A DNA stretch of 21,817 bases, taken from a virus. Both the position numbers and the translations under genes were made by a program. The notes under the pieces were generated by a model. It saw only the letters and a program-made list of their open reading frames with translations. It was not told the DNA's origin and did not search any database. Each line of letters opens with the position of its first letter. Within the stretch, counting starts at the first letter, position 1. The DNA lies in IMG/VR virus record IMGVR_UViG_3300027298_000012, positions 1-21,817 of that record. One strand, given 5' to 3'. Positions 2,984 to 19,145 of this stretch are shown one piece after another.

Positions 2984-2988
2984 GTTTT

Positions 2989-2996
2989 TATTTATC
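2989..2996 (-). promoter_or_regulatory. Late-promoter octamer GATAAATA, 5 bp from the SGNH start
   Basis: GATAAATA, then AAAAC, then ATG at 2983. With the T4 late-promoter spacing the first transcribed base would be the A of the start codon. No Shine-Dalgarno sequence can fit between. Confidence 0.65.
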
Positions 2997-2997
2997 T

Positions 2998-3005
2998 TAT
3001 AAATA
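2998..3005 (+). promoter_or_regulatory. Late-promoter octamer TATAAATA, 5 bp from the 3011 start
   Basis: TATAAATA, then TCAGT, then ATG at 3011. It stands back to back with the minus-strand octamer, one base away, forming a compact divergent promoter pair in the 27 bp between the two start codons. Confidence 0.65.
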
Positions 3006-3010
3006 TCAGT

Positions 3011-3586
3011 ATGAAAACGGTTATATTACTAATTGATTTTGATGGTCATAAAATACTTGCTGATGAGTATGTAAACAAATTACGATACAGCACACTTCAA
3101 CATATCATAGACGACACGAGCATAGATAGAAATGCTAATATCATATTATCTATTGGTAATAGTGTAAGAGATAAAAAATTACAAGAACTAAAAAGTATGG
3201 CCATAGAGGATAAGTGGCAATGGCTAGAAATACCAGATGATAGTTTAAGTGTAGAAAGCATAGAAAAGTTAGTACTTGAAAAACTTAACTTTAGTATGAA
3301 TAATACCGATACTCAAATAGTCATAGGAGGTTGCAATACTGCAGGATGTGTGATAAAATCTAAATTGTGTAGTGCAAAATATTTTTCATGGAAACAATAT
3401 AAGACAACTATACTATTACCTATGTGTGCTGAATATGCCCACCATGGTATAAATGATATTGAAAAAAATATGAGAGCGTTTGGTAAAGTGTTTACTTTTA
3501 TAAAAGATAATAAGTTAAAAAATATTCATATAGCAGAGGACGTTATGAGAGTTAACTTTATCAAATATGATAAACAGATAATATAG
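3011..3586 (+). CDS. Isochorismatase-fold-like protein
   Basis: I place the start at the ATG at 3011 (191 aa), because a late octamer ends 5 bp before it; a longer frame from 2960 would run through the divergent promoter and into the opposite gene. The N-terminal strand VILLIDFDGHK (Asp9, Asp11) resembles the first catalytic Asp region of isochorismatase-like cysteine hydrolases, and IGGCNTAGCV (Cys108, Cys113) resembles their Gly-x-x-Thr-x-x-Cys-Val nucleophile block, followed by a strand (TTILLPMCAEYAH) like the family's last core strand. I cannot place the usual catalytic Lys, so activity is uncertain. It is the first gene of the rightward accessory operon, 14 bases before the radical SAM gene. 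A cytoplasmic hydrolase of a small amide or ester is possible; the family call is moderate to weak. Confidence 0.5.
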   Translation: MKTVILLIDFDGHKILADEYVNKLRYSTLQHIIDDTSIDRNANIILSIGNSVRDKKLQELKSMAIEDKWQWLEIPDDSLSVESIEKLVLEKLNFSMNNTDTQIVIGGCNTAGCVIKSKLCSAKYFSWKQYKTTILLPMCAEYAHHGINDIEKNMRAFGKVFTFIKDNKLKNIHIAEDVMRVNFIKYDKQII

Positions 3587-3587
3587 A

Positions 3588-3595
3588 GATAAATA
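3588..3595 (+). promoter_or_regulatory. Late-promoter octamer GATAAATA, 5 bp from the radical SAM start
   Basis: GATAAATA begins two bases after the preceding stop; ATTTT follows, then ATG at 3601. Same 5-bp spacing and lack of Shine-Dalgarno sequence as the sites near 2983, 3011, 14620, 19114 and 19146. Confidence 0.65.
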
Positions 3596-3600
3596 ATTTT

Positions 3601-5163
3601 ATGGAAACTGATTTAAATAAAAAAGTGGTGAAAGATATTGATGACATGCACGACAAACAAGTTGAGGACATGCTCACAAAAGGTGGCCCTGGTGACCGTT
3701 CTTCTCCTGGTAATGTAAATACTGAAGAATGGTGGAAGTGGAATAATTTATCAGACTATACTAAACTTAAAGCAGGTAAAACCGTACGTGGTCAACCACC
3801 ATCAGACAAATCAATTCTACAACAAGCAAAAGATAAAGATATATGGTTTTGTACAATACCATTTACACAAGTCTATAATGAGATAAGTGGTAAATATAGA
3901 GCATGTTGTTTTGGTAAAGACGCTGAACATGAAACTATTAAGAACACATCATTAAAAGAATGGATGGTTGATAGTGAATACATGAATAGTATTCGTAAAG
4001 AAATGCTTGATCCTAAATCAGATCATAAAGCAGTAAATGATATATGCCGAAGATGTAGAAGTGATGAGGAAATATATGGTAGAAGTAGAAGAACAAACTG
4101 CTTAAAAATTCATACTAACGATAAAGAGTTTTGGGATAATATTCAAAAGAATGTTGAACTATATAACGCAAGTGGTCAGTATGCCTTTGATGAAAGAATT
4201 TTAGAAATACAATTAAAAGTATTTGGGTCAGAATGTAACCTTGATTGTTTTATGTGTGTACATGCTAATTCTACAACTAGACAACGTGTTGCTGAAAAAG
4301 GTGTTTGGAATGACGCTGTGTTTGGTGAACGTGGTAAAGTTAGAGAAGATTATATGAAACTTGTTATGGCAGATAAAACTGAAGGTGTTACTGAACAAGT
4401 TATGGAATTATTACCATATGTTAGAAGTATTAAAGTAATTGGTGGTGAACCATTGATTATGAAAAAACATTATGAGTTATTAGAAAAGGTTATTGAAAGT
4501 GGCCATGCAAAACATATCTATTTAAAATATCAAACTAACTTAACTAAAACTAAAAAAGGTAGACACAATATATTTAATTACATTCCTCATTTTAAAAATG
4601 TATCTATGGTTGCTTCAGTAGATGGTATTGGTAAGACTATTGAATACATGAGAAGAAGAACTGAATGGGAAGAAGTTGTAGAAAATATAGAGATGTGTCG
4701 TCAACACCCTAACGTTGTTGTTGACTTCAATGGTTTAGTTTCTAATCTTTCAGTTATGAGATTTTATGAAGTTATTGATTGGTGTAAAGACAATCCTGTT
4801 ATTGATCAATTGAATTGGGCAATGATTGACAAACCTAAACATTTAAGACCTAATAACTTACCAGAAGAAATTAAGAAGTCATTAATACCAAAATATAAAG
4901 ACTGGCCTGATATAATAGCTGCATTAGAAAGACCTGCTGATCCAGATGTAGATTTACAAAACGTATTTGATTATATGTTAAAGGCAGATAAATTCTATGA
5001 AGGCACAAAATGGGAATCACATTTGTTTGAAGTGTTTCCTGAATTAGAACCATATTACGATCCTACTAAACATAGAGATCATAACGAACAAGCAAAAATA
5101 TTTCAAACATGGGATAAATCAGTAAAGGAAGCTGAAGAAACTTCAGATACAAATATTATATGA
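3601..5163 (+). CDS. Radical SAM protein with N-terminal SPASM/twitch-like domain
   Basis: A 520-residue protein. The radical SAM core carries the cluster motif Cys212-x3-Cys216-x2-Cys219 (CNLDCFMC) and the SAM-binding GGEP at 281-284, within a TIM-barrel-like stretch of about residues 200-430. Ahead of it is a Cys-rich auxiliary region like SPASM/twitch domains: Cys84, Cys102-Cys103, Cys149 and Cys152, with KEWMVDSEYMNSIRKEML between. Such domains bind extra 4Fe-4S clusters; here the domain precedes the core, whereas SPASM normally follows it. These enzymes cleave SAM to a 5'-deoxyadenosyl radical and modify peptides, sugars or other small molecules; the substrate is unknown. The stop overlaps the nitroreductase ATG (ATGA), so the two are probably co-translated. 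The C-terminal part (about 430-520) is charged and has no recognised domain. Confidence 0.88.
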   Translation: METDLNKKVVKDIDDMHDKQVEDMLTKGGPGDRSSPGNVNTEEWWKWNNLSDYTKLKAGKTVRGQPPSDKSILQQAKDKDIWFCTIPFTQVYNEISGKYRACCFGKDAEHETIKNTSLKEWMVDSEYMNSIRKEMLDPKSDHKAVNDICRRCRSDEEIYGRSRRTNCLKIHTNDKEFWDNIQKNVELYNASGQYAFDERILEIQLKVFGSECNLDCFMCVHANSTTRQRVAEKGVWNDAVFGERGKVREDYMKLVMADKTEGVTEQVMELLPYVRSIKVIGGEPLIMKKHYELLEKVIESGHAKHIYLKYQTNLTKTKKGRHNIFNYIPHFKNVSMVASVDGIGKTIEYMRRRTEWEEVVENIEMCRQHPNVVVDFNGLVSNLSVMRFYEVIDWCKDNPVIDQLNWAMIDKPKHLRPNNLPEEIKKSLIPKYKDWPDIIAALERPADPDVDLQNVFDYMLKADKFYEGTKWESHLFEVFPELEPYYDPTKHRDHNEQAKIFQTWDKSVKEAEETSDTNII

Positions 5164-5861
5164 TATACGAAACAGTAAAAAAAGCAAGACACGTACATGA
5201 GTTTTATACTTACAAAGAAAAACCTGTTGATAAAGAAGTATTAAAAGACTTATTAGAAAAGACTTATGAAATTACACCATCAAAAAATAATATGGCTGCT
5301 TGGCAAGTACACGTTTTAGGTCCAGAACATCAAAAATATAAAGACGCTCTTTTTGAAGGGTCGGCAGCAAATGATACACTCTCTAATATAGGTAATAAAG
5401 ATTATGTAGATATAGGGCACGAAAATGAAAAAAAAGGTATACCAAGAGAAAATGTTATGTATAGAAGTTTGAATACCGCCCCATATGTTTTAATTGTAAC
5501 ACAAAGAAAATCTGAACTAACAAGTCCATATCAAAAAGACGCTTGGAGTAGAGGTATATTTTATGACCCTTGTACAGAAAAAGGTCTTGCTGATAGTAGA
5601 GAAAATATTTGTGTTGAATGTGGATTATTTGCAATGAATTTTAGAAGTTTAGCAATTGAAAAAGGTATTGATACAACATACACTTGCAATTTTAATAAGC
5701 AATTAGATACAAAGGTATGGAAGCAATTACCTTTTGTTGATAGACGAGTTAATGTAATGATATCCGTTGGTTATGGTAAAAAATATAGACGAGATATACA
5801 CCCAATTACATATGACTATAAGCCTTCTATTAATAAGATAATTAAATGGCTACCTGCTTGA
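5160..5861 (+). CDS. Nitroreductase-family flavoprotein
   Basis: A 233-residue protein with the nitroreductase layout: an N-terminal helix KARHVHEF, then PVDKEVLKDLLEKTYEITPS followed by KNNMAAWQVHVLGP, matching the family's R-x-x-x-x-F and PSxxNxxPW-type FMN-contact blocks, and a C-terminal strand RVNVMISVGYGKK. The helix around CGLFAMNFRSLAIEKGI corresponds to the dimer-interface helix that normally begins G-A/x-x-x-N. Members use FMN and NAD(P)H to reduce nitro groups, flavins, quinones or enones, and some act as dehydrogenases on peptide- or sugar-derived intermediates. The ATG overlaps the radical SAM stop, which suggests both enzymes act in one pathway. Cytoplasmic. The family is fairly sure, the substrate unknown. 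Confidence 0.82.
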   Translation: MIYETVKKARHVHEFYTYKEKPVDKEVLKDLLEKTYEITPSKNNMAAWQVHVLGPEHQKYKDALFEGSAANDTLSNIGNKDYVDIGHENEKKGIPRENVMYRSLNTAPYVLIVTQRKSELTSPYQKDAWSRGIFYDPCTEKGLADSRENICVECGLFAMNFRSLAIEKGIDTTYTCNFNKQLDTKVWKQLPFVDRRVNVMISVGYGKKYRRDIHPITYDYKPSINKIIKWLPA

Positions 5862-5885
5862 CTTTAACAATAGATATGATATAAT
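5858..5885 (+). promoter_or_regulatory. Sigma70-like promoter, TTGACT-N16-TATAAT with extended -10
   Basis: TTGACT at 5858-5863 and TATAAT at 5880-5885, 16 bp apart, with TG one base before the -10 (TGATATAAT). It overlaps the stop of the nitroreductase gene. Expected initiation at about 5891-5893 coincides with the next ATG (5891), which has no clear Shine-Dalgarno sequence. This could give the second half of the operon its own host-polymerase expression. AT-richness makes chance matches possible. Confidence 0.5.
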
Positions 5886-5890
5886 GAAAG

Positions 5891-6238
5891 ATGAGCAAAT
5901 TTAGTAGTAAAGAAATAGATCCTAAAGATATTAAAATTAAACCTCGTTGTTTAGTATATGAGCCAAAGAGTTATCATAAGCCTGCAGCTTACACAGCAGA
6001 TGGTTATATGTTACCTTGTTGTTGGTTAGATGATCCTAAAAATGATCATGGCGTAGAGGAAGTATTTCATTTAAAAGATGAACACCTTGCATTAAAGAAT
6101 AACGATAAGTTAGAAGACATATTTGGTTCTGAAGAATGGGAACACTTCTTTGATACACTAATAAATAATCCTAGTTGTGCTTTGAAACAATGTCAATATA
6201 AATGTGGCAATAGAGAAAAAGATAATTATAAAATATGA
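5891..6238 (+). CDS. Free-standing SPASM/twitch-like Fe-S protein
   Basis: A 115-residue protein that looks like an auxiliary-cluster domain without a radical SAM core. Cysteines lie at Cys20 (PRCLVYEP), Cys43-Cys44 (GYMLPCCWLDDP), Cys96, Cys101 and Cys105 (SCALKQCQYKCG), with the family's typical LEDIFGSEEWEHFFDTL segment between. This is the same arrangement as the N-terminal region of the 520-aa radical SAM protein. Its stop overlaps the ATG of a radical SAM protein that lacks such a domain (ATGA), so the two probably work as one split enzyme. It probably binds a 4Fe-4S cluster; it has no membrane segment or signal. The role is inferred from motifs and context. Confidence 0.72.
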   Translation: MSKFSSKEIDPKDIKIKPRCLVYEPKSYHKPAAYTADGYMLPCCWLDDPKNDHGVEEVFHLKDEHLALKNNDKLEDIFGSEEWEHFFDTLINNPSCALKQCQYKCGNREKDNYKI

Positions 6239-6996
6239 AGGAAAAACATTCAGATTTCTATATTCGTAATCAACGTTTCTCATCACCTAATATGGATTTA
6301 TCTCATAGGTGTATATTACGTTGCCCACAATGTTTACGACAAAAGGTAGAAGGTCTACCTAGAATAGCAAGATCATTTGACATTGATCCTAATGAGTTTA
6401 GAAAAATACTATCCTACTATGAACATCAAATAACCTTTTGTGGTCAAATATCAGACCCAATATATCACCCACAATTTTTAACATTTTTAGAAATGATGGA
6501 TGGTTTAGGTAAAGGTTTAAGAGTTGCAACTAATGGTACTAATACAAAAGGCATGGATGATAAGTGGTGGGAAAAAGCATATAGTTATGGTGTAGGAGAA
6601 AACTGTTGGTACTTTGGTGTTGATGGTTTAGATAAGAAATCAGAATTGTATCGTATAGGTTCTAACTTTGAACAAGTATGGGAAACTATGAAAATGGGTG
6701 TTGCCATGGGTCACCCGATAGTTTGGCAATATATAATATTTGGATACAATGAACATGAAATAGAACAAGCAAAAGAGATGGCTGAAAAAGAAGGTATAAC
6801 TTTATTACTAATTAATACTAATAGAGGTTTTGATCCTAGAAGTAGAAATTTAAGAAAGAACGTACAAGAAGCATATGCTAACTTTCAAAAGCCTAGTGAC
6901 AAGCATACAGTAAAAAAAATAAAAAAAGAAACTTACTTTAATGTAACACCAGAGTTGACACATTGGAGAAAAGTAAGACACGGAGCATTAAAATAA
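6235..6996 (+). CDS. Radical SAM protein, core domain only
   Basis: A 253-residue protein whose Cys26-x3-Cys30-x2-Cys33 (CILRCPQC) is the canonical radical SAM cluster motif, preceded by a strand (NMDLSHR). FCGQISDPIYHP fills the place of the GGEP SAM-binding motif, RVATNGTNT is the usual third strand, and WYFGVDGLDKKSELYRIG matches the S/D-x-D-G block. The C terminus is short (about 60 residues after the barrel) and has no auxiliary Cys cluster; that domain is encoded by the preceding overlapping gene. The stop overlaps the next ATG (TAATG). The core assignment is firm; the reaction is unknown. Confidence 0.87.
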   Translation: MKEKHSDFYIRNQRFSSPNMDLSHRCILRCPQCLRQKVEGLPRIARSFDIDPNEFRKILSYYEHQITFCGQISDPIYHPQFLTFLEMMDGLGKGLRVATNGTNTKGMDDKWWEKAYSYGVGENCWYFGVDGLDKKSELYRIGSNFEQVWETMKMGVAMGHPIVWQYIIFGYNEHEIEQAKEMAEKEGITLLLINTNRGFDPRSRNLRKNVQEAYANFQKPSDKHTVKKIKKETYFNVTPELTHWRKVRHGALK

Positions 6997-7841
6997 TGAA
7001 TATAACATATAACAACATAACAATTCCTTTCTATGGAAAACACTTATTAGATTTAATGGAAACATCACCTTATAGAGATAGAGCAAAGGCTGATGTAGCA
7101 CTAGATGAAGATGGCATACCTAAAACAATTGTTGCTTCATTATCAGGTGGTTGTGATTCTGCAGCTGCATTATATCTAACTGCAAAACACTTTATTAATA
7201 TTGACATCTATCCATTAACGTTTAGAGATGTACACGCACCAAAAGACGCTGACGCAGCTGCTGAAATAGTTGAGTTTATAAAGAACAAGTTTCCTTTTGC
7301 AAATATACGTGAACATACAATAATAGATTTTGATGATAAGGATCCTGTACACTATGAAAAGGCACAAAAATTTATAGATACAAGACCTGAATATAAAACA
7401 TTGAACTTACAACAAATGTCAAAGTGTAACCAAATAGATGATGGTTCGGATGAATTTATGGCACGTTTAGATAGACCTTTACGTTTAGATGGTATGTCAG
7501 CAAACCCACCTATGGAAGTAAGAAAACAATTTAGTGATTATGCAATAAAGAAGTTTCCTAATATTAAGTTTGATGAAAAGAACATTGCTAGAATAAGAGG
7601 TGAAGCAAGACGTGATACGGGTGGTAAAGAACCTGAATTAAAATACAATGTATATAAACCTTGGGTTAATCAATCTAAAAAATTTATTGCAAGTATCTAT
7701 AAAGAAGAAGGTTTAATGAAAGACCTATATCCTATCACACGTAGTTGTGTTGGTGGACCTAATCAAACTAATAACTTTACTGAATGGTGTTGGCAATGCT
7801 TTTGGTGTTATGAAAAAGCATGGGCATTTGATTTACTTTAA
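6996..7841 (+). CDS. QueC-like PP-loop ATP pyrophosphatase
   Basis: I start at the ATG at 6996 (281 aa), coupled to the previous stop in TAATG. Ser50-Gly-Gly-Cys-Asp-Ser55 in a strand-loop-helix setting is the PP-loop that binds ATP and activates a carboxyl or carbonyl group as an adenylate. Near the C terminus, Cys251, Cys265, Cys268 and Cys271 (SC...CWQCFWC, then EKAWAFD) match the zinc knuckle of QueC/ExsB proteins. QueC makes preQ0, but no QueD, QueE or GCH gene is visible here, and the radical SAM proteins have CX3CX2C rather than QueE's motif, so another amidation or thiolation is equally possible, for instance of a sugar or peptide. It is the last gene of the operon; its 3' end overlaps the convergent sulfotransferase gene by 9 bases. 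Confidence 0.75.
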   Translation: MNITYNNITIPFYGKHLLDLMETSPYRDRAKADVALDEDGIPKTIVASLSGGCDSAAALYLTAKHFINIDIYPLTFRDVHAPKDADAAAEIVEFIKNKFPFANIREHTIIDFDDKDPVHYEKAQKFIDTRPEYKTLNLQQMSKCNQIDDGSDEFMARLDRPLRLDGMSANPPMEVRKQFSDYAIKKFPNIKFDEKNIARIRGEARRDTGGKEPELKYNVYKPWVNQSKKFIASIYKEEGLMKDLYPITRSCVGGPNQTNNFTEWCWQCFWCYEKAWAFDLL

Positions 7842-8675
7842 TTCATAACCATAGTATTGAAATTCATTGTAAAAACGTTCTTCAAATATTTCTCTTATGA
7901 TTTTCATATCTTCTGGTTTAAAATAAGTTTTATACTCAAAGGTAGTAAAAGGTGTAGGAAGTTTTTTCAAAACAACTTTAAAATAATCTTCTAACCATTC
8001 TGTAGTAATATCTTCAGTCCATATTATTTGTGGTTTATCTAATTCTTCAATAACAACATCATTTAAAAAGCGAATACTATTAACAAAGTTATTCCAACAT
8101 ATTTCATTAAATTTAAATTCTACTTTGTATTCTTGTATTGTGCTTTTTATAATATCTTCAGCTACATCAAATCCATATTTACCTTCATCAGTCTTTGATG
8201 GTGTAATATAAGTATAACCTTCTTTGTTATTACCTTTAACATTATTTGGACCTGTTGCAAGTCCAATACAATTATAAAACAATATTGCTAACCAATGGGT
8301 AAACATATGTCGTCTTTTTAAAACTAATATATTATGGTCTTTATAAAAGGTTTTAAACCAAGGCCATATAGATATGATTTCAGGTACATGTGCTTTATGT
8401 GCTAATTCTAAACCATACTCTCTTAACTCTTTTAATAATTCAATACGTTGAGTCATTGTCTTTTTCCTAAAGTCATGTTCATTATCTTCATGGTTTCTTA
8501 CACAAAAGAACTCATTAAATAAATTACCAGGTGGCAACGTAACACCAAATTGTCTATACTTTTTATGAATATAACTTTGCACCCAAGTAGATCCACTCTT
8601 GTGCATACTAATTAATTGAACGTATCTATTCCTTGATGTTTTCTTTGAAATACTTGTCATACTTATCGGGTTCAT
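7833..8675 (-). CDS. Sulfotransferase-like protein
   Basis: The N-terminal strand-loop-helix [18 protein letters not shown] (Lys26, Ser27, Gly28, Thr30, Trp31) is the 5'-phosphosulfate loop of PAPS-dependent sulfotransferases (PKSGTTW type). The length (280 aa) fits the family, which moves sulfate from PAPS to a hydroxyl or amine of a sugar, lipid or small molecule. A region around residues 110-135 ([20 protein letters not shown]) could hold the 3'-phosphate-binding block, with Arg and downstream polar residues. No signal peptide is seen. The start is uncertain: 8675 overlaps the ferredoxin gene by 50 bases, a second ATG at 8660 by 35; neither has a Shine-Dalgarno sequence. Position next to SGNH and radical SAM genes hints at glycan or small-molecule modification. 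Confidence 0.75.
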
Positions 8676-8952
8676 CTTTTAATGCGTCACCATAAGGACT
8701 ATCCCTATTTTCTGTTATGTTAGGCCATATACGAGAATACTCATCATTTACTTTTTTCATTAAACCACTTGACTCTGATTCCTCAACAATAGCGTTAATA
8801 GGACATTCAGGTTCACATACACCACAATCAATACATTCTTCAGGATTAATTACCAACATATTTTCACCTTCATAGAAACAATCAACAGGACAGACATCCA
8901 CACAATCCATCAACTTACATTTTATACACTTTTCATTTACTACATAAGTCAT
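8626..8952 (-). CDS. fdxA: 7Fe-type bacterial ferredoxin
   Basis: I choose the ATG at 8952 because the product then begins [13 protein letters not shown], the usual N terminus of FdxA-type ferredoxins; a longer frame from 8970 adds six residues not seen in the family. The 108-aa protein keeps all cysteines of the 3Fe-4S/4Fe-4S ferredoxins: Cys9, Cys12, Cys17, Cys21, Cys25 ([13 protein letters not shown]), then Cys40, Cys43, Cys46 and Cys50 ([12 protein letters not shown]). It carries low-potential electrons in the cytoplasm. Radical SAM enzymes need such a donor, and the neighbouring operon has two; that link is inference. The C-terminal 50 residues are acidic and typical of the longer members. 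The stop lies inside the sulfotransferase gene. Confidence 0.9.
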
Positions 8953-9009
8953 ATCACAAATTCCGCACAAGTTAACATTCGAGTCTCGCTCTCTTAAAGC
9001 GAAAAATTT

Positions 9010-9339
9010 TTAGACGCTAAAACTTTCCCCACAGCCACAGCTACTCTTACTATTAGGATTAGTTATCTTAAATTCGCTATTAAACTCACCCTCTACCCAA
9101 TCTAACGTAGTACCTAATAAGTATAATTCTAATTCTAAAGATACAACTAATACATTACCTAATAAACAATCAGTATCTTCTCTTTCGTTAGTAGTAGACC
9201 ATTTATATTCAAAGCCTGCACATCCACCACCCTTAATGTCTAAACGAACATAACTCGTGCCTGCCTTATTTGCTATGTAAGTTAATCTCTTTATTGCGTT
9301 ATCTGTTAGCTCTAGCATGGTTCCTTTGGGTTTCAACAT
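9010..9339 (-). CDS. A-type Fe-S cluster carrier (IscA/ErpA/HesB family)
   Basis: A 109-residue protein with the A-type carrier pattern: N-terminal LELTDNAIKRL, Cys40 in KGGGCAGFEY and the C-terminal pair Cys101-Gly-Cys103 in SSCGCGESFSV. These three cysteines hold and pass on 2Fe-2S or 4Fe-4S clusters to target proteins. Two starts are possible: ATG 9339 (no Shine-Dalgarno sequence) and ATG 9318, which is preceded by AAAGGA and would begin MLELTDNA, closer to the usual family start. It lies just upstream of the ferredoxin gene in the same direction, so carrier and electron donor are probably co-expressed. HesB-like genes are known in T4-like marine phages. Which A-type subfamily this is cannot be told from the sequence alone. 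Confidence 0.9.
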   Translation of the reverse strand: MLKPKGTMLELTDNAIKRLTYIANKAGTSYVRLDIKGGGCAGFEYKWSTTNEREDTDCLLGNVLVVSLELELYLLGTTLDWVEGEFNSEFKITNPNSKSSCGCGESFSV

Positions 9340-9382
9340 AACTATGTATAAAAGTATTAATCTCTAAAACGTATTCAAGTAA

Positions 9383-9401: not shown

Positions 9402-9467
9402 CTTATATAGTAAAAAATAGCACGAAAAAAATTCTAATATCTAAACCAAGAAAAGCCGCTCCCTTAT

Positions 9468-9497: not shown

Positions 9498-9523
9498 TAG
9501 AAAGCCCAGCCAGTTTTAATAGT

Positions 9524-10615
9524 CTAGTTATGGTCAATCGGCGACCCAAACGTATGGTATTCACCTTGTGCTGTACGTGTTGTTGTACTCTTACTGGTCT
9601 CTAATATCTGACCTGCGACTACTTTGTATGTACCACCTACTGATATATTCATGTTGTTATTAGCAAACATATTAATATCACCATCTAAAGCGGCCATGTT
9701 AATGTTACCTTTATCTACTTGTATATTTACATTAGCATTAGGTCCTACCTGTATGTCATAGTTATTATCTGCAGCGCCATTCGCATTGAGCATTATCTTA
9801 TGACGGCCTTGTATTGTAATGTCTGAATTGCCTTTGATGTAATGCTTACTATTCTTTTCTATTATGGTATTAAGGTCATCTTTAATAATCGTATTGGTTG
9901 TGCCTTTGTCTGTAATTTCTGTTTCAGTCCCACTATGGTGATATAAGAGGATACGTTCTTTGTTTGGTGTATCATCAAATTCTAATATGTGGCCTGATTC
10001 TGATTCATATACATGGCCGTATGGGTATTCAGTTGCATAGGTATTTTCTGGTAGGGACCATACATCACCTGCACTTGCGTCAATCTCAGCAATGCCATCT
10101 TTAACTTCTATAATGTTACCTGTTGGTATGTTTGTATATGAGGCCGCTCGTATGGTCTTTCTTGCTTCTAGTATGAGTGACTGATTATCTGCGTCATTCC
10201 GTGCTAATCTATTAACATCACTCTCGGCCGCATAACGTGGGTATACACCATTGGGATCGCTAAACCCTAAACCCTCGGCCGCATTAAGAGCGCCTGTAGA
10301 AATAGGTTTGCCAGGTAAGGACCCAAGTATTACTGCGTCTTGTTTAGTATCTGCATCCCTAAAGAAACCTATGACCCATGACCCTTCTAATAATCCTAGT
10401 GGCGTCTGGCCTATACCAGATATGCCTGATGAAGTAATAGGTAAGAGAGGGTGTGCCCAAGGTAAATCTGAAGTAGGCAATACACTCTTGTCCTCTGTGT
10501 GATAACCTAGACATCTGACTCTGCAACGGCCAAGTTTAAGCGGGTCTGCTCTATCTTCTACCACACCTGCGAACCAGATGAAGCCATCTCTGCCCATAAA
10601 ATCTGTAGTACTCAT
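9524..10615 (-). CDS. gp5: Baseplate central spike gp5, without a lysozyme domain
   Basis: A 363-residue homologue of T4 gp5. Residues 12-105 form the N-terminal OB-fold (WFAGVVEDRADPLKLGRCRV, very close to T4's WFVGVVEDRMDPLKLGRVRV). GFSDPNGVYPR (117-127) matches the T4 segment before its lysozyme. The C-terminal part (YPYGHVYESESGHILEFDDT from 197, then repeated I/V-x-I/V-x strands) is the trimeric beta-helix needle. T4 gp5 is 575 residues; the whole internal lysozyme domain is missing here and replaced by a linker of about 65 residues (130-195). It forms the membrane-piercing tip with gp27. AGGA lies 8 bases before the ATG; a separate longer Shine-Dalgarno-like sequence and a hairpin lie further upstream. 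The identification is firm. Confidence 0.95.
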   Translation of the reverse strand: MSTTDFMGRDGFIWFAGVVEDRADPLKLGRCRVRCLGYHTEDKSVLPTSDLPWAHPLLPITSSGISGIGQTPLGLLEGSWVIGFFRDADTKQDAVILGSLPGKPISTGALNAAEGLGFSDPNGVYPRYAAESDVNRLARNDADNQSLILEARKTIRAASYTNIPTGNIIEVKDGIAEIDASAGDVWSLPENTYATEYPYGHVYESESGHILEFDDTPNKERILLYHHSGTETEITDKGTTNTIIKDDLNTIIEKNSKHYIKGNSDITIQGRHKIMLNANGAADNNYDIQVGPNANVNIQVDKGNINMAALDGDINMFANNNMNISVGGTYKVVAGQILETSKSTTTRTAQGEYHTFGSPIDHN

Positions 10616-10633
10616 TTATTTTTTCCTATAAAT

Positions 10634-10661
10634 GACCGTATTTAAAGCGGTCACCTCCTTA
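10634..10661 (-). promoter_or_regulatory. gp5 leader: full-length Shine-Dalgarno match plus hairpin
   Basis: On the minus strand TAAGGAGGTGA (10661-10651) is complementary to eleven bases of the bacterial 16S rRNA 3' end, much longer than any other ribosome site in the window, yet it lies 35 bases before the gp5 ATG. It runs straight into a hairpin, GACCG (10652-10648) and CGGTC (10638-10634), with a 9-base loop. A 12-codon frame from the GTG at 10654 ends in TAA directly before the gp5 ATG (TAAATG). This looks like a translational control element or ribosome standby site. Confidence 0.45.
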
Positions 10662-10669
10662 TATTTATC
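10662..10669 (-). promoter_or_regulatory. Late-promoter octamer GATAAATA upstream of gp5
   Basis: GATAAATA on the minus strand, 46 bp before the gp5 ATG and directly before TAAGGAGGTGA. With T4 geometry, initiation would fall near 10656, inside that Shine-Dalgarno-like sequence, so transcripts from this promoter would carry only part of it while read-through from gp27 would carry all of it. Confidence 0.5.
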
Positions 10670-10674
10670 CGTAT

Positions 10675-11022: not shown

Positions 11023-12988
11023 GACTTTGCTTGAAGTTTACCATTGAGGATTGTACAAACTTATTGACATTCCCTTGTATTCTACTTCTTATTCTATCTG
11101 CACCCATAGGGTTTAGACCATTGCCACCTGCAATACCTGATAGATTGATACCACCTAGTGCTAGTTTTGCCTTTTCTGCGATTTTCTCTACTACGGTCTT
11201 TCTTGTTAATATGGCATTGTTGATTTTTGCAAGGTTTTTGTTAGATAAAACCCTATTAGAAGTACTATTTAAAACGGCGTTAATAGACTTATTAGCGGCA
11301 TCCTTGACGTTTAAGTCTGTACTACTTAAATCAACGCCTAACTGCGTAGCAATGTCTTCTACGGTGCTTATCTGCGGCGATGGTATCTTTAAGTTCTTAT
11401 TTTTCAATGGGACTAGGGTGGTTATGTCTATACCCGACCCTATTACATCAATAGGTTGTGATCTGAAATGAGCACTTGCTTTAAACGTTTCTGCTAGAGG
11501 TAAATCTGTAGCAAATATGTTACGTACTACGGTCATTGATGTAGTGTGCTTTTGTTCTAATAGGTCAACTTGATGGTGTAATTTAGATATTAGATAACGA
11601 CCCGATAACAATACATCTGTTACATCATTTCGTTCAAGTTTGGCGTCATTGCCAACCTCTGTAGCAGCATATTTTGGTACCTCACACCATACAAGGTCGC
11701 CTACGTTATATGTAAAGTTACCAGGTACGTCTATATCCATTGAGAAGTAATCACGTGACCCACTTGATAATGCTTGTTTTGCTGTTGCTCTCTTGTCTAT
11801 ACCTATGCCTTCACTATTACGTCTATGATTCCATTTAGTAGCAGGTTCTACAAATACACGTGATAGGTAATCATCCATATACTTACGTTTATCATTTCCT
11901 TTTTTAGATAGTTTACTAGCATGTAAACGATTAATCTGGTGTTTATTCTCACTTGTATATGACTTATCATCTACGGTGTAATCATCATCAAAGTCAGCAG
12001 GACCTGGTGGCATAACGCCTTGATATTTGTTACCAGCACCAGTCGGTGCGTCTATGTGTAATGCTTGTTCATAGTAGTTTGTATATGATAGTTTTGATTT
12101 GATAAACTTCTTATCAATCAGGTCGTGAGCATAGGTCATACTACCAAACATACCTCTTCTTGTATTTGCTAATATGTTATATGAAGCGTCAAACGAAAAT
12201 GAATATGGTTTAGTTACGATAGAGTCTGCCTCGGTATCAGGTGGACTAAAGTTAGGATTAAATGCTGATAATAGGTCTATGAAAGCAACAAACTTTCTAG
12301 TTTGTGTTGTATCAGCGCCTTCTCTATACAATGACTCTAAACATCTAAAATGAAAACCTCTATTGTTCTCATAAAACATATAGTGTGGTGTCTTGTAATT
12401 AACTGGTTCTGCTAGGTCTGCCATTGATCTTACACCATCTATCGGTCGTACATTTGGGAATGTGTACTTATAATTACCTAACGTTGAGTCAATGAATAGG
12501 TCTTTTTTAGAGTTCAATAATTCTTTATCTGACTTGACTAACTTGTCAACCATTTCTGCAAACGAACCTTCTAATGATTTTGAAACACGTACTCTTTCGT
12601 TACGTACTGACTCGATTGATGTAAAGAATAAAGCAATTGCTTGTACGTTTTGCTGTGTCTTAACCGATCTCTTTTCATACACCTTAAATCTATGATTAGT
12701 AGCATTCAGTTCTTCATCACCTGCAGCGTCAATTGGGTTTCTAAATTTAAACTCTAAATGTTCGTTACCTACAATAGGTAAACTAGTTTGTATACCCATT
12801 GTGTCAAAGAATAAAATGTTGCCTGATAGAAATGGTGAGTCTAGGTTTTGATAGACGTTGACAACTGCGGTTAGACCTGATATATCAAATTGTGTACCAT
12901 TGTAACCGTATAAAATAATTTCACCTGATCTAAAGTCGCCAGGATATCTGTTATTTAAATCATCATATTTTGGTGCGTCTGTTGACAT
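10985..12988 (-). CDS. gp27: Baseplate hub protein, gp27-like
   Basis: A 667-residue protein whose N-terminal half follows the T4 gp27 layout: a beta-rich opening (FDISGLTAVVNVYQNLDSPF), GNILFFDTMGI followed by LEFKFRNP, a helix at SLEGSFAEMVDKLVKSD, and a later domain with DIDVPGNFTYNVGDLVWCEV, where gp27 has its second tube-like beta barrel. T4 gp27 is 391 residues; the extra length here is mostly in the middle and in a C-terminal tail (about 520-667) of unknown fold. gp27 is the trimeric hub that joins the gp5 spike to the tail tube. AGGAG seven bases before ATG supports the start. Context (gp53 just upstream, gp5 downstream) supports the call more than local identity does. Confidence 0.8.
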   Translation of the reverse strand: MSTDAPKYDDLNNRYPGDFRSGEIILYGYNGTQFDISGLTAVVNVYQNLDSPFLSGNILFFDTMGIQTSLPIVGNEHLEFKFRNPIDAAGDEELNATNHRFKVYEKRSVKTQQNVQAIALFFTSIESVRNERVRVSKSLEGSFAEMVDKLVKSDKELLNSKKDLFIDSTLGNYKYTFPNVRPIDGVRSMADLAEPVNYKTPHYMFYENNRGFHFRCLESLYREGADTTQTRKFVAFIDLLSAFNPNFSPPDTEADSIVTKPYSFSFDASYNILANTRRGMFGSMTYAHDLIDKKFIKSKLSYTNYYEQALHIDAPTGAGNKYQGVMPPGPADFDDDYTVDDKSYTSENKHQINRLHASKLSKKGNDKRKYMDDYLSRVFVEPATKWNHRRNSEGIGIDKRATAKQALSSGSRDYFSMDIDVPGNFTYNVGDLVWCEVPKYAATEVGNDAKLERNDVTDVLLSGRYLISKLHHQVDLLEQKHTTSMTVVRNIFATDLPLAETFKASAHFRSQPIDVIGSGIDITTLVPLKNKNLKIPSPQISTVEDIATQLGVDLSSTDLNVKDAANKSINAVLNSTSNRVLSNKNLAKINNAILTRKTVVEKIAEKAKLALGGINLSGIAGGNGLNPMGADRIRSRIQGNVNKFVQSSMVNFKQSLASARSFFKGFF

Positions 12989-12989
12989 A

Positions 12990-13520
12990 TTACGCTCCTA
13001 TCAATGTTCTAAACTCTTCCGTAATTAATTCTAAAAATTCAGGTTTGATTAATTTGATCCTTGATTTCTTATCCTGTAATTTTTGCTCATAATCATAGTT
13101 AGATACACTTGTTGCACCTGACACGGTGCTGTTTACTTGTATTTTGTGTGAGTCGTCAAATGATGATGTAGCACCACTTGATTGAGCAACTTCGTAATGA
13201 TGTATAGCATTTACGTCACTATACTTATCTTGTACGTACTTCTCAAATTGACCTGCTGTTAACGGCCAGTCATAAAATCTATCTTTTACATCATTGAACA
13301 ATAGTATAATCCAGTAATACTGCTGATCGCCATAGTATTGCTCTGATACTGATTCAGGTGTGTCTTCACCCATTATGTCGTATAGGTCAAATAGAGCAGC
13401 ACTTTCTTTTAATCCCTTTTTCATTTGTACTCGTCTTAATAGGTTTGTAACTAGTTTGAAATTACCTTTACCCTCAGCGTCATAATATATTTTAGGAAAG
13501 GCATTGAAATAATTAGGCAT
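12990..13520 (-). CDS. gp53: Baseplate wedge protein gp53
   Basis: A 176-residue protein with the gp53 hallmark GEDTPESVSEQYYGDQQYYW followed by IILLFNDVKDRFYDWPL and FEKYVQDKY: a LysM-like fold with the conserved YYGD...W...N...D..YDWP pattern. T4 gp53 (196 aa) joins the baseplate wedges around the hub. The ATG overlaps the gp48 stop in TAATG, and the gp27 start follows two bases after the stop, so gp48, gp53 and gp27 look like one translationally linked unit. The C-terminal part (about 120-176) is Ser/Thr-rich, then charged. Confidence 0.92.
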   Translation of the reverse strand: MPNYFNAFPKIYYDAEGKGNFKLVTNLLRRVQMKKGLKESAALFDLYDIMGEDTPESVSEQYYGDQQYYWIILLFNDVKDRFYDWPLTAGQFEKYVQDKYSDVNAIHHYEVAQSSGATSSFDDSHKIQVNSTVSGATSVSNYDYEQKLQDKKSRIKLIKPEFLELITEEFRTLIGA

Positions 13521-14620
13521 TAATTAGAACCTTCCGTTGAGCTTCTGTCTGTGTTTTGAGCACTACTTCTTAATGCGTTATATCTTGTTCTCTCCATTAG
13601 TTCTAGTTCTCTAAATGTTAGTGTTGCGTCTATTGATACAGGATCACCACTAGCGTGTGTTGAAAACTTATCTGAACCGTAGTCTATGTCAACACCTGTA
13701 CATGCACATAAACCTATCTGATCTAGGTATGGATTGATTTTAGTACCTTTCATAAATCTAATTACAAATTCATGTGGTACTTGATATGCAGCAATACTTT
13801 TTGTACCGACTCTTGTTGGTAGCATTCCGTCTTTGATAGCATGTAATAGGTTGTTAACTACGTCTGACTCTTTTCTGCTTCTAGGTGTAAACTTAAACGT
13901 AAAACTAAACGTTCTATAATCTATACCATTAAATATCATTTCTGTCATGGCTGCTGGTGCAATACCAGTTCTACGTTGTAAGGCAGCATTTACACCTGCA
14001 CCTAAACCACCAGTAGCAAATGATCCTAAACCTGTAACTAACTTACCGACTTGAGCACCAACTGCTTTTAAATCACCACCAAAGAATTTACCACTATTCA
14101 TTGCGTCCCTTAATTTTGAAAGAGCACCTAAACCACCACCTATTTCTTCAGCACCATAGTCTGCCTGTAAATTGAATTTAAGTGTTTGTGGCATGTAAAT
14201 AGCGATTGTAGTTTTTACTTCCCTTACTGCACCTTTACCTGTAGGTATACCTAATAGACCTGAAGTAGTACCTTCACTAAAAAATCTGTTAGCACCATAT
14301 ACAACTTCGTTTAAATTGTCTGCTCTTTTTGTAAATTGTGTGTTTCTAACACTTGTATTATTACCACCTTCACTTCTTCTTTCTATAATATCAAATAAGA
14401 TGTAATGCTCTTGGTCATCTTTGTCTATAGGATAAACATAAAACTTATTACTATCTGTTATAGGGTGAGCAGAGTAATCTACGTTTGTAGGATTGTAATT
14501 GATAACACCTTTTTTAGTCGCTATAGTTTGAAACGAAACTGGTGATGTAAAACCTTTTAGGACTGATTGAGGTTTATTAAGACCTTTGATTATGTTACCG
14601 ATTACTTTAAATGCTTTCAT
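13520..14620 (-). CDS. gp48: Baseplate tail tube cap gp48
   Basis: A 366-residue protein, almost the length of T4 gp48 (364). Conserved-looking regions include IAIYMPQTLKFNLQADYGAE near residue 140, a Gly/Ala-rich linker and the tube-like domain DYRTFSFTFKFTPRSRKES, followed by LLHAIKDGMLPTR and a C-terminal VSIDATLTFRELELM. The protein caps the baseplate hub where tube polymerisation begins, with gp54. The ATG lies 5 bp after a GATAAATA late octamer and has no Shine-Dalgarno sequence; it opens the gp48-gp53-gp27 unit. Confidence 0.92.
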   Translation of the reverse strand: MKAFKVIGNIIKGLNKPQSVLKGFTSPVSFQTIATKKGVINYNPTNVDYSAHPITDSNKFYVYPIDKDDQEHYILFDIIERRSEGGNNTSVRNTQFTKRADNLNEVVYGANRFFSEGTTSGLLGIPTGKGAVREVKTTIAIYMPQTLKFNLQADYGAEEIGGGLGALSKLRDAMNSGKFFGGDLKAVGAQVGKLVTGLGSFATGGLGAGVNAALQRRTGIAPAAMTEMIFNGIDYRTFSFTFKFTPRSRKESDVVNNLLHAIKDGMLPTRVGTKSIAAYQVPHEFVIRFMKGTKINPYLDQIGLCACTGVDIDYGSDKFSTHASGDPVSIDATLTFRELELMERTRYNALRSSAQNTDRSSTEGSN

Positions 14621-14625
14621 ATTAA

Positions 14626-14633
14626 TATTTATC
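14626..14633 (-). promoter_or_regulatory. Late-promoter octamer GATAAATA, 5 bp from the gp48 start
   Basis: GATAAATA, TTAAT, then ATG at 14620, in the 21-base gap after the tape-measure stop. Same 5-bp geometry as at five other genes in this window; predicts a leaderless gp48 message. Confidence 0.65.
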
Positions 14634-14641
14634 TACCTATC

Positions 14642-16267: not shown

Positions 16268-16270
16268 TTA

Positions 16271-16570: not shown

Positions 16571-16573
16571 AAA

Positions 16574-16765: not shown

Positions 16766-17454
16766 AAAAAATCTGACGCCCCTTGTAACAATAATGTAAA
16801 CTCTTTACCTGATTTAGGATTGTTATACTTAATCAGGTGTGATACAATAGGTAAATGTTCAAAGTACTCTCTTATCTGTTTAAACTGCTTTGTAGTTAAA
16901 TGTTCAACATACTCGTCAAGTTCTTCTACAGATAAATCATTTGCTTCGTGTACTTCGTCACCATTGTATATTTGAGCAATGCAATCCCTAACTAAATTAA
17001 AAGACAAATCTAACAATGTTCTTTTGTTAGCAATCTGCATAATTGTAGGCACTTTCATTATCACACCATAGTCTTTTTCAAATTCAATCTTTGTATCAAC
17101 CTTCTTATCAAGGTCAGGTTTAACATCATCTAATTTTAATTGATAGTCAACAGAAACGGTATCGTCATCTGGACATTTCAATTTCATTTCTATAATTTCA
17201 CCAACAGATTTACCTCGTATATTTAACCAAAGATATTCAAAGTCATATACTGGTAACTTCGTTACGTCTATTTGTGATAATGTACATTGTTGAACAATTT
17301 TAATTAGAGCATTGTTCATCTCACCTTCGTCTTTGCTCTCTACAGCCATCAATAAAACTTTTTCTTCTTTTATTAAGAATGGTCTGTATTTCACCTTTAC
17401 ATTATTTGATAACGTCAAATTATATTCAGGCACCTTTATAAATGATAAACTCAT
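16759..17454 (-). CDS. gp26: Baseplate hub subunit gp26 / tail-assembly chaperone-like
   Basis: A 231-residue protein resembling gp26 of T4-like phages: an N-terminal beta segment (KVPEYNLTLSNNVKVKYRPF), a helix of the LIKEEKVLLMA type, the conserved LPVYDFEYLWLNIRGKSVGE at about 62-81, a CPDDD segment and a central VIMKVPT motif. gp26 is needed to assemble the hub in T4 but is a small part of it. The frame ends ...SDFFQ at TAA 16759, two codons after a slippery T_TTT_TTT, and a 63-codon extension follows in the -1 frame. This makes the gene look like the first half of a frameshifted tail-assembly chaperone pair. AAGGAG eight bases before the ATG supports the start. Confidence 0.85.
   Translation of the reverse strand: MSLSFIKVPEYNLTLSNNVKVKYRPFLIKEEKVLLMAVESKDEGEMNNALIKIVQQCTLSQIDVTKLPVYDFEYLWLNIRGKSVGEIIEMKLKCPDDDTVSVDYQLKLDDVKPDLDKKVDTKIEFEKDYGVIMKVPTIMQIANKRTLLDLSFNLVRDCIAQIYNGDEVHEANDLSVEELDEYVEHLTTKQFKQIREYFEHLPIVSHLIKYNNPKSGKEFTLLLQGASDFFQ
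16765..16771 (-). promoter_or_regulatory. Candidate -1 frameshift heptamer T_TTT_TTT in gp26
   Basis: The gp26 codons GAT TTT TTT CAG TAA contain the last T of GAT plus TTT TTT, an ideal X_XXY_YYZ heptamer, two codons before the stop. A Shine-Dalgarno-like AAGGGG lies eight bases upstream of it, a known stimulator of -1 shifting. CTCT (16756-16753) and AGAG (16737-16734) could form a short downstream stem. Confidence 0.65.
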
Positions 17455-17468
17455 TATTTAACTCCTTA

Positions 17469-18560
17469 TTAATATAAAAAATCACGTATGATTCTAGGGT
17501 CTGGTAGACCTTTCGGGAACACACGTCCTCCCGTTGTTCGCCCAATAGGCAAATTCTTTTTAAGTGTTTCATACACTTGACGACCTGCTCTACCTATCTC
17601 GTTACCTATACCAAAAGGTAGGTTATCTAATAGGTTACCTTGTATTGCTGTCGTATTAGTTCTATATTCGTTTCTGTTTAGTGTGCTGTATTCTTCGGTT
17701 GCTGTTTTACCTAAAAAGTTCCATGCTGATGTAGCATGATTTCTGTATGTAAATGTAACACTAGTTTTAACAATCTGATTTTGAGCGTCATAACTCAATG
17801 GTGTAGCAGCAATTGTTTTAGGCCACACTTCATACATTTGCACTTGATAAGATGAGAAACCAGAGTTATCGCCTAGTGATTGTCTGATCTTATCTCTATC
17901 TGCAAGTGTATCGCCTGTTGGTTCAAAATTTTGTAATGCAGCGATAAACGTTTTAGTTAATGGTGTAATTGTAATCATACATGGTGTAGCATAATCATCA
18001 TAGTAACCTACGTTATGTGATATAGGATCAACTATGCTGTTTTGCCATGCCTCAAAAAATATACGTTCATCATAGTTTATACTAGTATAAAATTCTAATG
18101 TGACCTCATTGAATTGTACATTTTTAGCAAATGCTCTTTTAGGACCATAATAGGTTTCATTTGTATCGTCTGTGATAGTCTTATCAGGTAATGATACACT
18201 TGAACAGAATAGATCCATTCTTAACTGCATATTCTTTTTGATTGCCGCTGACAATCTAGCACTCTTTGCCATACGAGCAGCCTGATCTTTACCTTTTGCG
18301 TCAGCGTATATTGATGTATCGCCAAACGTTGCTGCTTTAGGACCATCAATCGTAACCATAAATTGTGTCGGTCTTGCAAACCCACCTGATTGTGTTATGC
18401 CTGATCTGAATATGTTGTAAACTGAATTGTAATTAGATGTAACGTTATTTACTGAAAATCTTTTATTAGTTTCGCTTACATTGAATTGTGCTTTAGATGG
18501 TGGTATACCTAATCGTATATCTAAATCACCTATCTTTTTACCTACACTAATTATTGACAT
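17469..18560 (-). CDS. gp54: Baseplate tail tube initiator gp54
   Basis: A 363-residue protein with the tail-tube-related fold of T4 gp54 (320 aa). RPTQFMVTIDGPK (about 62-74), LFCSSVSLPDKTI, NETYYGPKRAFAKNVQFNEV, LEFYTSINYDERIFFEAWQN followed by SIVDPISHNVGYYDDY, and a C-terminal VTFTYRNHATSAW follow the gp19/gp54 pattern. It sits on the hub and starts tube polymerisation together with gp48. The ATG is coupled to the previous stop in TAATG and also has AGGAG nine bases upstream. The N-terminal 50 residues and the Gly/Arg-rich C terminus are less conserved-looking. Confidence 0.9.
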   Translation of the reverse strand: MSIISVGKKIGDLDIRLGIPPSKAQFNVSETNKRFSVNNVTSNYNSVYNIFRSGITQSGGFARPTQFMVTIDGPKAATFGDTSIYADAKGKDQAARMAKSARLSAAIKKNMQLRMDLFCSSVSLPDKTITDDTNETYYGPKRAFAKNVQFNEVTLEFYTSINYDERIFFEAWQNSIVDPISHNVGYYDDYATPCMITITPLTKTFIAALQNFEPTGDTLADRDKIRQSLGDNSGFSSYQVQMYEVWPKTIAATPLSYDAQNQIVKTSVTFTYRNHATSAWNFLGKTATEEYSTLNRNEYRTNTTAIQGNLLDNLPFGIGNEIGRAGRQVYETLKKNLPIGRTTGGRVFPKGLPDPRIIRDFLY

Positions 18561-19114
18561 TAAATAAATCTCCTACTGTCTGAATAAACTTTTGCTTCAG
18601 TTGCCTTTTTGAATCTTTGTACAGGTAAGTAGATAGCAACTGCTGCCTCATCTGCATTTACTCTAAAAAATCCTGTCTGTACATATGAGTACAAATACTT
18701 TTTGATTGTTGGTTTCACAATTTTTATATTCTTTACATCATCATAGTTTACATTGAATTTTGTCTTATCGTCAAATCTACTATCTGTTGCTGTTGCCTGC
18801 ATACGTTCTAATAATCTAAATCTCAATAGTGGTGGTAGATAGTGAAAGTTCATACCCATAAACCCACCTGATATTGGTTCTAATGGCAACACCAATGGGA
18901 ATACATCATAATAAGGTAACGTTTTTCTGTATTTAGGATTGTACCCAAATAAGTTCAATCTGCCTACACTTGGTCTACGATTAAGTTTACCTTGTCTAAA
19001 CAATTGTCCTGCTGTAGTATTACTAGCAATCTTATTTACTTGCGTTCTATACCAAGTAGCAGACTTTGTTGTATCCCCAGCACGTGTTTTTATAGTGTCA
19101 AATACGCTTGCCAT
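18560..19114 (-). CDS. Conserved T4-type virion-associated protein, unassigned
   Basis: A 184-residue protein with a distinctive block NLFGYNPKYRKTLPYYDVFP followed by LVLPLEPISGGFMGMNFHYLPPLLRFRLLERM (54-103), a central KNIKIVKPTIKKYLYSY and a basic C terminus. It looks like a real virion-type gene, but I cannot place it with confidence; small T4 completion proteins encoded near gene 4, such as gp2 or gp3, are unverified candidates. It is the first gene of the leftward tail operon, divergent from gp4. The ATG is 5 bp after CATAAATA without a Shine-Dalgarno sequence. gp54 follows in TAATG overlap. Confidence 0.82.
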   Translation of the reverse strand: MASVFDTIKTRAGDTTKSATWYRTQVNKIASNTTAGQLFRQGKLNRRPSVGRLNLFGYNPKYRKTLPYYDVFPLVLPLEPISGGFMGMNFHYLPPLLRFRLLERMQATATDSRFDDKTKFNVNYDDVKNIKIVKPTIKKYLYSYVQTGFFRVNADEAAVAIYLPVQRFKKATEAKVYSDSRRFI

Positions 19115-19119
19115 ATTAC

Positions 19120-19127
19120 TATTTATG
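19120..19127 (-). promoter_or_regulatory. Late-promoter octamer CATAAATA, 5 bp from the 19114 start
   Basis: CATAAATA, GTAAT, then ATG at 19114. It would drive the 184-aa gene, gp54, gp26, the membrane protein and the tape measure. Confidence 0.65.
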
Positions 19128-19132
19128 TTGGT

Positions 19133-19140
19133 AATAAATA
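19133..19140 (+). promoter_or_regulatory. Late-promoter octamer AATAAATA, 5 bp from the gp4 start
   Basis: AATAAATA, GATTT, then ATG at 19146. It forms, with the minus-strand octamer five bases away, the second divergent pair of this kind in the window (31 bp between start codons). Confidence 0.62.
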
Positions 19141-19145
19141 GATTT

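Follow-up and report, generated by a model that had tools for sequence, protein, structure and literature searches.

Why should a late-promoter octamer of the T4 type lie at one and the same distance, exactly 5 bp, from the ATG of six different genes? The question is raised by IMG/VR record IMGVR_UViG_3300027298_000012, a viral genome fragment of 21,817 bases that was analyzed over its whole length and is called the window below. A sequence-only reading of the window had proposed that the six genes are expressed as leaderless late mRNAs. Our analysis of the window and its relatives makes it very probable that the octamers are late promoters of T4 type abutting the gene, so that transcription would start on the A of the ATG and the genes would form a leaderless late regulon.

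A search of the window for ATAAATA-N5-ATG gave six sites, three per strand, and a backward-pattern control gave none; all six placements and spacer sequences listed in the sequence-only reading were recovered. On the minus strand, the late-promoter octamer GATAAATA at 2989..2996 is separated by AAAAC (2984-2988) from the ATG of a 298-amino-acid (aa) gene (2087-2983), which had been labeled SGNH and for which Pfam gives only a below-cut-off match, to DUF6071. The same octamer at 14626..14633 (-), with the spacer TTAAT, lies 5 bp before the ATG at 14620 of gp48, the baseplate tail tube cap (13520-14620), and CATAAATA at 19120..19127 (-), with the spacer GTAAT, stands in the same relation to the ATG at 19114 of a gene (18560-19114) previously described as a 184-aa gene and assigned by PHROGs to the DNA end protector, gp2. 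On the plus strand, TATAAATA at 2998..3005 (spacer TCAGT) lies 5 bp before the ATG at 3011 of a 191-aa gene (3011-3586), GATAAATA at 3588..3595 (spacer ATTTT) is 5 bp before the ATG at 3601 of a radical SAM protein gene (3601-5163), and AATAAATA at 19133..19140 (spacer GATTT) is 5 bp before the ATG at 19146 of gp4, the head closure protein (19146-19607); the last two, like gp48, were named by PHROGs. The six genes fall into six separate protein clusters. Shine-Dalgarno (SD) 4-mers are absent from all six and are present before the downstream operon genes that start at 12988 (AGGAG), 18560 (AGGAG), 17454 (AAGGAG) and 16570 (AAGGA), both as had been claimed.

Placement of the octamer in the window and its relatives

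The 7-mer ATAAATA is not enriched in the window, where it occurs 12 times against a shuffle mean of 17.1. Of 24 gene starts, taken from a list made by hand from open reading frame (ORF) calls, six have the octamer at 5 bp, compared with 0.0255 expected from the upstream dinucleotide composition (binomial P = 2e-13, or about 1e-11 once 60 offsets are allowed for). The frequency of the octamer in the window is ordinary and its placement is non-random.

Scans with gp4 and gp48 produced 80 and 73 IMG/VR loci, respectively, some of them on the same contigs. In these 153 loci together with the window, 92 of 251 distinct ATAAATA sites lie exactly 5 bp before the ATG of an ORF of at least 60 codons, while 6 sites lie at 6 bp, 2 at 0-4 bp summed and 1 at 7-15 bp summed. 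The distances are not flat but form a single-base peak at 5 bp, in agreement with the sequence-only reading. Each of 20 anagrams of ATAAATA gave at most 6 sites at 5 bp in the same sequences. Peaks also occur for two of the anagrams, at 6 bp for AATAAAT (33 sites) and at 7 bp for TAATAAA (26 sites); they were taken, without a site by site check, for TAATAAATA sites read one and two bases out of register.

The same result was obtained in several ways of counting. With identical contexts counted once, an ATG follows at 5 bp in 122 of 480 octamer contexts and at 6 bp in 8. When the genes of the loci and of five whole genomes or contigs were clustered by protein, 28 families had a member at 5 bp, against 0 to 8 (mean about 3) for the anagrams; no family had one at 3, 4 or 9 bp, six did at 0-2 bp summed, five at 6 bp, and three each at 7, 8 and 10 bp. 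The initial family tally required an octamer within 80 bp and counted repeatedly those contigs that had been fetched more than once; on these terms 140 of 142 gp2 matches have the octamer at 5 bp and two at 6 bp, twice-fetched contigs being counted twice. Counts that were not conditioned on the octamer gave ATAAATA at 5 or 6 bp upstream in 80 of 80 gp4 loci, of which 65 were scored by script (29 at 5 bp and 36 at 6 bp) and 15, in which the match begins two or three codons late, were read by eye (all at 5 bp), and in 64 of 73 gp48 loci. Among the gp48 loci with 5-bp spacing, a set chosen for the octamer, the first 57 coding bases after the ATG average 40 percent ungapped identity.

Individual genomes were scored as the number of 5-bp sites before an ORF of at least 50 aa over all ATAAATA sites. 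The values were 9/54 and 8/63 for two marine contigs of 165-170 kb (G001 and G002), 9/45 for HTVC008M, 6/56 for Mosig, 3/42 for Melnitz and 6/12 for the window, and these six are referred to below as the clade. No distance within 60 bp is as frequent as 5 bp in G001, G002, HTVC008M and Mosig. The Rhizobium phage RHph_I1_18 has 3/29, plus one site at 6 bp. Elsewhere the arrangement was rare, with 0/65 in T4, 0/38 in Syn9, 0/42 in S-RSM4, 1/66 in P-SSM2, 0/30 in AG-345-P14 (its last 55 bases not included), 0/24 in phiM12, 0/13 in Moby and 1/34 in C48C1; in SRB7757 a pattern search, the only analysis made of it, found no ATAAATA-N5-ATG. Gene calls were longest-ATG ORFs, and those below 50 aa (60, 90 or 100 aa in some counts) were excluded, a cut that drops some ATAAATA-N5-ATG places, for example 2 of 8 in Mosig, 2 of 5 in RHph_I1_18, 2 of 3 in P-SSM2 and both in T4.

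An overall enrichment of the octamer in the clade was considered and rejected, since each of the 20 anagrams outnumbers ATAAATA in G001 (where it occurs 54 times, against an anagram median of 121), G002, HTVC008M and Mosig, and also in T4, perhaps through selection against stray late promoters. Its count lies within the anagram range in Melnitz, Syn9, S-RSM4 and the window, and in RHph_I1_18 it exceeds the anagram median (29 against 9).

The predicted transcription start

In T4, the late promoter TATAAATA spans positions -13 to -6, as given in an excerpt of PMC1524935. An octamer at -13 to -6 places +1 on the sixth base after it, and therefore on the A of the ATG at the 5-bp genes, which is the geometry that the sequence-only reading had invoked. 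Independent agreement comes from the base at -1, a pyrimidine in 40 of the 41 genes with 5- or 6-bp spacing (a set that includes orthologues) compared with 375 of the 803 remaining genes in these genomes (P = 4e-12). The commonest -1 base is a pyrimidine in 27 of the 28 families, and leadered promoters, those in which the octamer lies farther from the gene, show no such preference (40/89). A purine preference at the predicted +1 agrees as well but is not unique to that position, and among the start-site signals only the -1 pyrimidine is sharply specific. We read this pyrimidine and the A after it as an initiator step of the pyrimidine-purine type, which would pin initiation to the A. A slip of one base would be harmless in a leadered message, but would cost a leaderless one the A of its AUG.

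The choice of start codon and the empty distances point in the same direction. Among distinct contexts, the start codons at 5 bp are ATG in 122, GTG in 1 and TTG in 0, while those at the remaining distances within 80 bp (6 bp excluded) are ATG in 292, GTG in 33 and TTG in 80. The absence of families at 3 and 4 bp also fits a start on the A of the ATG, since the RNA predicted at these distances would lose the A of AUG. An AUG at the very 5' end of the RNA of the 5-bp genes is thus a strong prediction from the spacing.

Probable late promoters and competing explanations

If the octamers are late promoters fused to the start codon, they would be read by the host's RNA polymerase with the help of a gp55-like late sigma factor, the promoter having closed up on the gene so far that RNA synthesis would begin on the A of the ATG itself. 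Ribosomes would then load directly on the 5'-terminal AUG without an SD. Read-through RNA would leave such genes poorly translated, so that expression would come mainly from their own late start. The same phages also carry ordinary leadered late octamers, mostly with an SD, and therefore two promoter classes coexist. It is also possible, although we hold it only tentatively and think it rather doubtful, that part of the gp55 late regulon in this lineage of ocean phages has become leaderless and is shut both ways, with transcription confined to the late period and translation, for lack of an SD, confined to RNAs that begin at their own AUG and excluded on early or read-through RNA, and that the host ribosome may shift toward leaderless initiation late in infection.

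Several observations are those expected of promoters. Genes with 5- or 6-bp spacing diverge from their upstream neighbor in 16 of 44 cases, compared with 70 of 984 gene starts overall (P = 7e-9; the rules for finding the two sets of starts differed a little, and the 16 include gp2/gp4 pairs from several genomes). In the window, the intergenic regions at 2984-3010 (27 bp) and 19115-19145 (31 bp, between gp2 and gp4) consist solely of two back-to-back 7-mers and their spacers, the 7-mers being 3 bp and 7 bp apart, respectively. All seven records searched have a gp55 homologue (G001, G002, HTVC008M, Mosig, Melnitz, Syn9 and S-RSM4; E values of 3e-19 to 5e-22). Most of the 5-bp genes to which PHROGs gave a name encode virion proteins (gp2, gp4, gp48, wedge subunit, tail tube, tape-measure-like and fibre assembly), "late" being judged here by homology to T4 virion genes rather than by expression, and the auxiliary ones encode a radical SAM protein, a 2-oxoglutarate oxygenase, a weak nitroreductase match and a metallophosphoesterase (with weaker DNA repair nuclease matches); one in RHph_I1_18 is homing-endonuclease-like. 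No replisome protein is among the PHROGs-named 5-bp genes, which cover some of the 28 families, replication genes not having been examined as a set.

Back-to-back divergent octamers occur mainly between gp2 and gp4, and in 240 of 250 pattern matches their 7-mers have 7 bp between them (a count that takes every place on both strands and includes repeated contigs). From this distance, two such promoters could hardly be occupied simultaneously.

A number of points weigh against a leaderless late regulon. The predicted +1 is a purine in 77 of 89 leadered promoters of the clade, where C never occurs, in 24 of 31 in T4 and in 72 of 94 in Syn9, S-RSM4, P-SSM2 and AG-345-P14 together, but offset 13 does equally well in T4 (19/26 each), and near-equal values occur at offsets 9 and 10 in the clade and at offsets 0 and 6 in the cyanophage set. 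Orphan octamers share the +1 purine (55/71), and either these are promoters too or the signal is compositional. Sixteen of the 28 families rest on a single site, about three could be chance at the anagram level, and most cases are gp2, gp4 and gp48 orthologues, for which reason families and not cases were used as the unit. Melnitz taken alone has no clear peak, its three sites at 5 bp being tied with three at 31 bp. The clade exceeds the other genomes (41/272 against 2/312 in T4, Syn9, S-RSM4, P-SSM2, AG-345-P14, phiM12, Moby and C48C1, with RHph_I1_18 excluded; Fisher P = 2e-12, or 8e-11 with RHph_I1_18 placed among the others), but this grouping was chosen after the counts were seen. An SD 4-mer precedes 3 of the 41 genes with 5- or 6-bp spacing, compared with 474 of the 803 remaining genes in these genomes, a control rate that wrong start calls may have lowered, and 49 of 64 leadered octamer genes; the absence is partly mechanical, however, and was set aside as independent proof because the octamer occupies the SD position. 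On the supporting side, none of the 41 has an in-frame start preceded by an SD within the next 30 codons.

The host adds a further point of this kind. The window gp2 is nearest to those of Pelagibacter phages (Mosig, 48 percent; HTVC008M, 46 percent) and the top-ranked genome matches of the window ferredoxin are to Pelagibacteraceae (67-69 percent), while gp4 is listed nearest to cyanophage S-CAM1 (54.9 percent; Melnitz, 54.3) and gp48 reaches about 27 percent at best, with enterobacterial phages; from these similarities a SAR11-like host is likely. In 249 genes of Pelagibacteraceae, TATAAT lies 5-8 bp before an ATG 3 times, against an anagram mean of 4.05 (the host test used 18 Pelagibacteraceae/Pelagibacterales and 36 other loci of 80). 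In these likely hosts, TATAAT shows no 5-8 bp peak and this test gives no sign of leaderless sigma-70 genes; translation of leaderless messages by Pelagibacteraceae is accordingly only presumed, and general leaderless use by the host is not claimed. The window, G001, G002, HTVC008M and Mosig have 10 TATAAT sites at 5-8 bp (anagram mean 4.9, maximum 12); this lack of a clear phage signal points specifically to the late octamer. SD 4-mers were seen in 22 of the 249 Pelagibacteraceae/Pelagibacterales genes (18 loci) and 159 of 556 genes of other alphaproteobacteria, and in 354 of 658 genes of these same five phage sequences, far more than in the probable hosts, start calls being crude.

One competing explanation accepts the octamers as real promoters but places initiation 1-3 nt before the ATG, or at scattered positions, so that the leaders would be very short. 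The five families with 6-bp members speak for it, as does gp4, at 6 bp in 36 of 80 loci and at 5 bp in 44 (15 of them by eye). The 6-bp spacers of the clade (GATTCT, TAGCAT, GATAAT and TATAAT), however, all end in T, which keeps the pyrimidine-purine step on the A, and the -1 pyrimidine is nearly invariant; only the RHph_I1_18 spacer ATAGCA is an exception. We therefore judge very short leaders to be unlikely.

SD-less initiation can be helped by A/U-rich upstream stretches, and the octamer and its five bases might accordingly be a translation-initiation signal, an A/U-rich ribosome or S1 site, within a longer mRNA whose promoter lies elsewhere. Such mRNAs are conceivable, as 20 of 28 codirectional sites lie less than 25 bp after the upstream gene, where read-through RNA is likely. 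Nevertheless the string is the T4 and cyanophage late promoter and occurs at leadered distances in the same genomes, anagrams of equal composition have no 5-bp peak, divergent gene starts are enriched about fivefold, and the -1 pyrimidine has no obvious ribosome rationale, all of which makes a ribosome site quite improbable. Chance or shared ancestry in an A+T-rich genome, with a few orthologous promoters counted repeatedly, can be dismissed almost entirely: gp2, gp4 and gp48 orthologues do supply most of the 341 cases, including contigs fetched more than once, but 28 families against 0-8 for the anagrams survive clustering, six genes in six clusters reach P = 2e-13 in the window alone, and the spacing is kept across the octamer-selected gp48 loci at an average identity of 40 percent.

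Related phages, two apparent states of gp48 and neighboring features

Outside the clade, the arrangement is best represented in RHph_I1_18, two of whose genes have pelagimyophage homologues at 5 bp. Its baseplate wedge subunit with the octamer, taken as gp25, is 35 percent identical to the G001 counterpart. A small "transcriptional regulator" of phrog_385 has the octamer 6 bp before the ATG in RHph_I1_18 (62523, +) and 5 bp before it in HTVC008M (142360, +), and the two proteins are 37 percent identical in these distantly related phages.

Comparison with known systems indicates which parts are familiar. T4 late promoters (TATAAATA, with gp55/gp33/gp45) resemble those of the clade in the octamer, in the gp55 homologue of the relatives and in the purine favored at the same offset, that of the predicted +1. 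They differ in having none of 65 sites 5 bp before the ATG of a 50-aa ORF; 30 of the 38 ATGs within 60 bp lie at 17-36 bp, and an SD is usual (19/23). The cyanophages S-PM2, Syn9, S-RSM4 and P-SSM2 have the same NATAAATA octamer upstream of late genes, a sequence described as the cyanophage late promoter in an excerpt of PMC2984593, and the records of HTVC008M, Mosig, Melnitz, Syn9, S-RSM4 and P-SSM2 alike give Kyanoviridae. Apart from the single 5-bp site in P-SSM2, however, longer distances dominate in Syn9, S-RSM4 and P-SSM2, and an SD accompanies 9 of 33 octamer genes of Syn9 and S-RSM4.

Leaderless phage messages are themselves not new. An excerpt of PMC3594737 describes the middle and late mRNAs of the Thermus phage phiYS40 as mostly leaderless and says that the phage raises IF2 and lowers IF3; this is a precedent for leaderless late mRNA in a phage. 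According to an excerpt of PMC5312081, phage transcripts are often leaderless, and the non-virion RNA polymerase of phiKZ reads TATG with the start on the G, while the related AR9 has leaders of 26-491 nt; phiKZ-type phages differ from the clade in using a phage-coded multisubunit polymerase and another promoter. For pelagimyophages, an excerpt of PMC7029224 says that late-promoter prediction failed, and for Melnitz 15 late promoters were predicted, with no remark on distance in the excerpt of PMC9004378, which also lists gp45-like and sigma-like genes in that phage. No description of leaderless T4-like late mRNAs was found in the open-licence PubMed Central literature, among the matches listed. 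The T4-type octamer, gp55 and leaderless mRNA in other phages are thus known parts, and what is new, as far as the literature listed shows, is their fusion with a fixed spacing across a lineage. Used as a rule, ATAAATA-N5-ATG offers an easy means of finding some such genes and a guide to the right start codon in annotation, and it predicts directly what RNA mapping should show.

The nine gp48 loci that fail the 5- or 6-bp count are of two kinds. Three (L136, L137 and L154) carry CTAAATA instead of ATAAATA, still 5 bp from the ATG, and CTAAATA is reported as a late motif of phage Aeh1 in the excerpt of PMC1524935. The other six have the motif farther upstream, and the leader so created contains a purine-rich stretch; ATAAATA stands at 16 bp in L096, L102, L144 and L156, CTAAATA at 16 bp in L104, and ATAAATA at 18 bp in L143. 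The purine-rich stretches are AAAGAGA, AAGAGAGA, AAAAGGA or AAAGAGAGA, of which only AAAAGGA contains an SD 4-mer. Because these loci combine a more distant motif with a purine-rich leader, gp48 seems to exist in two predicted states, one leaderless and lacking an SD, the other leadered and provided with an SD-like stretch. This suggests an alternation, among related T4-like phages, between a leadered and a leaderless form of one and the same promoter, which bears on the evolution of SD-independent translation in small genomes.

The remaining ATAAATA sites of the window include two leadered ones. The site at 10662..10668 (-) lies 46 bp before the ATG at 10615 of the baseplate hub/tail lysozyme gene, which is preceded by AGGA. 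In this leader (10619-10668, -), a strong SD-like AAGGAGG stands directly 3' of the octamer, beside an inverted repeat GACCG...CGGTC; no well-spaced start codon was seen for it by eye, and the gene's own AGGA is closer to the ATG. The site at 2098..2104 (-) lies 56 bp before the ATG at 2041, with the SD AGGAGA. A further site, at 1482 (-), is 13 bp from a GTG. The sequence-only reading had counted only three octamers inside genes, and those at 6161, 16698 (in a 59-aa TTG ORF) and 19244 (antisense within gp4) do lie inside ORFs; the number is four, however, as 2098-2104 overlaps the 3' end of the ORF at 2087-2983, where it may serve the gene at 2041. Finally, the region at 3601-9339 forms an island of auxiliary genes that encode two radical SAM proteins, a nitroreductase, a QueC-like protein (its Pfam match below cut-off), a ferredoxin and an Fe-S biogenesis protein.

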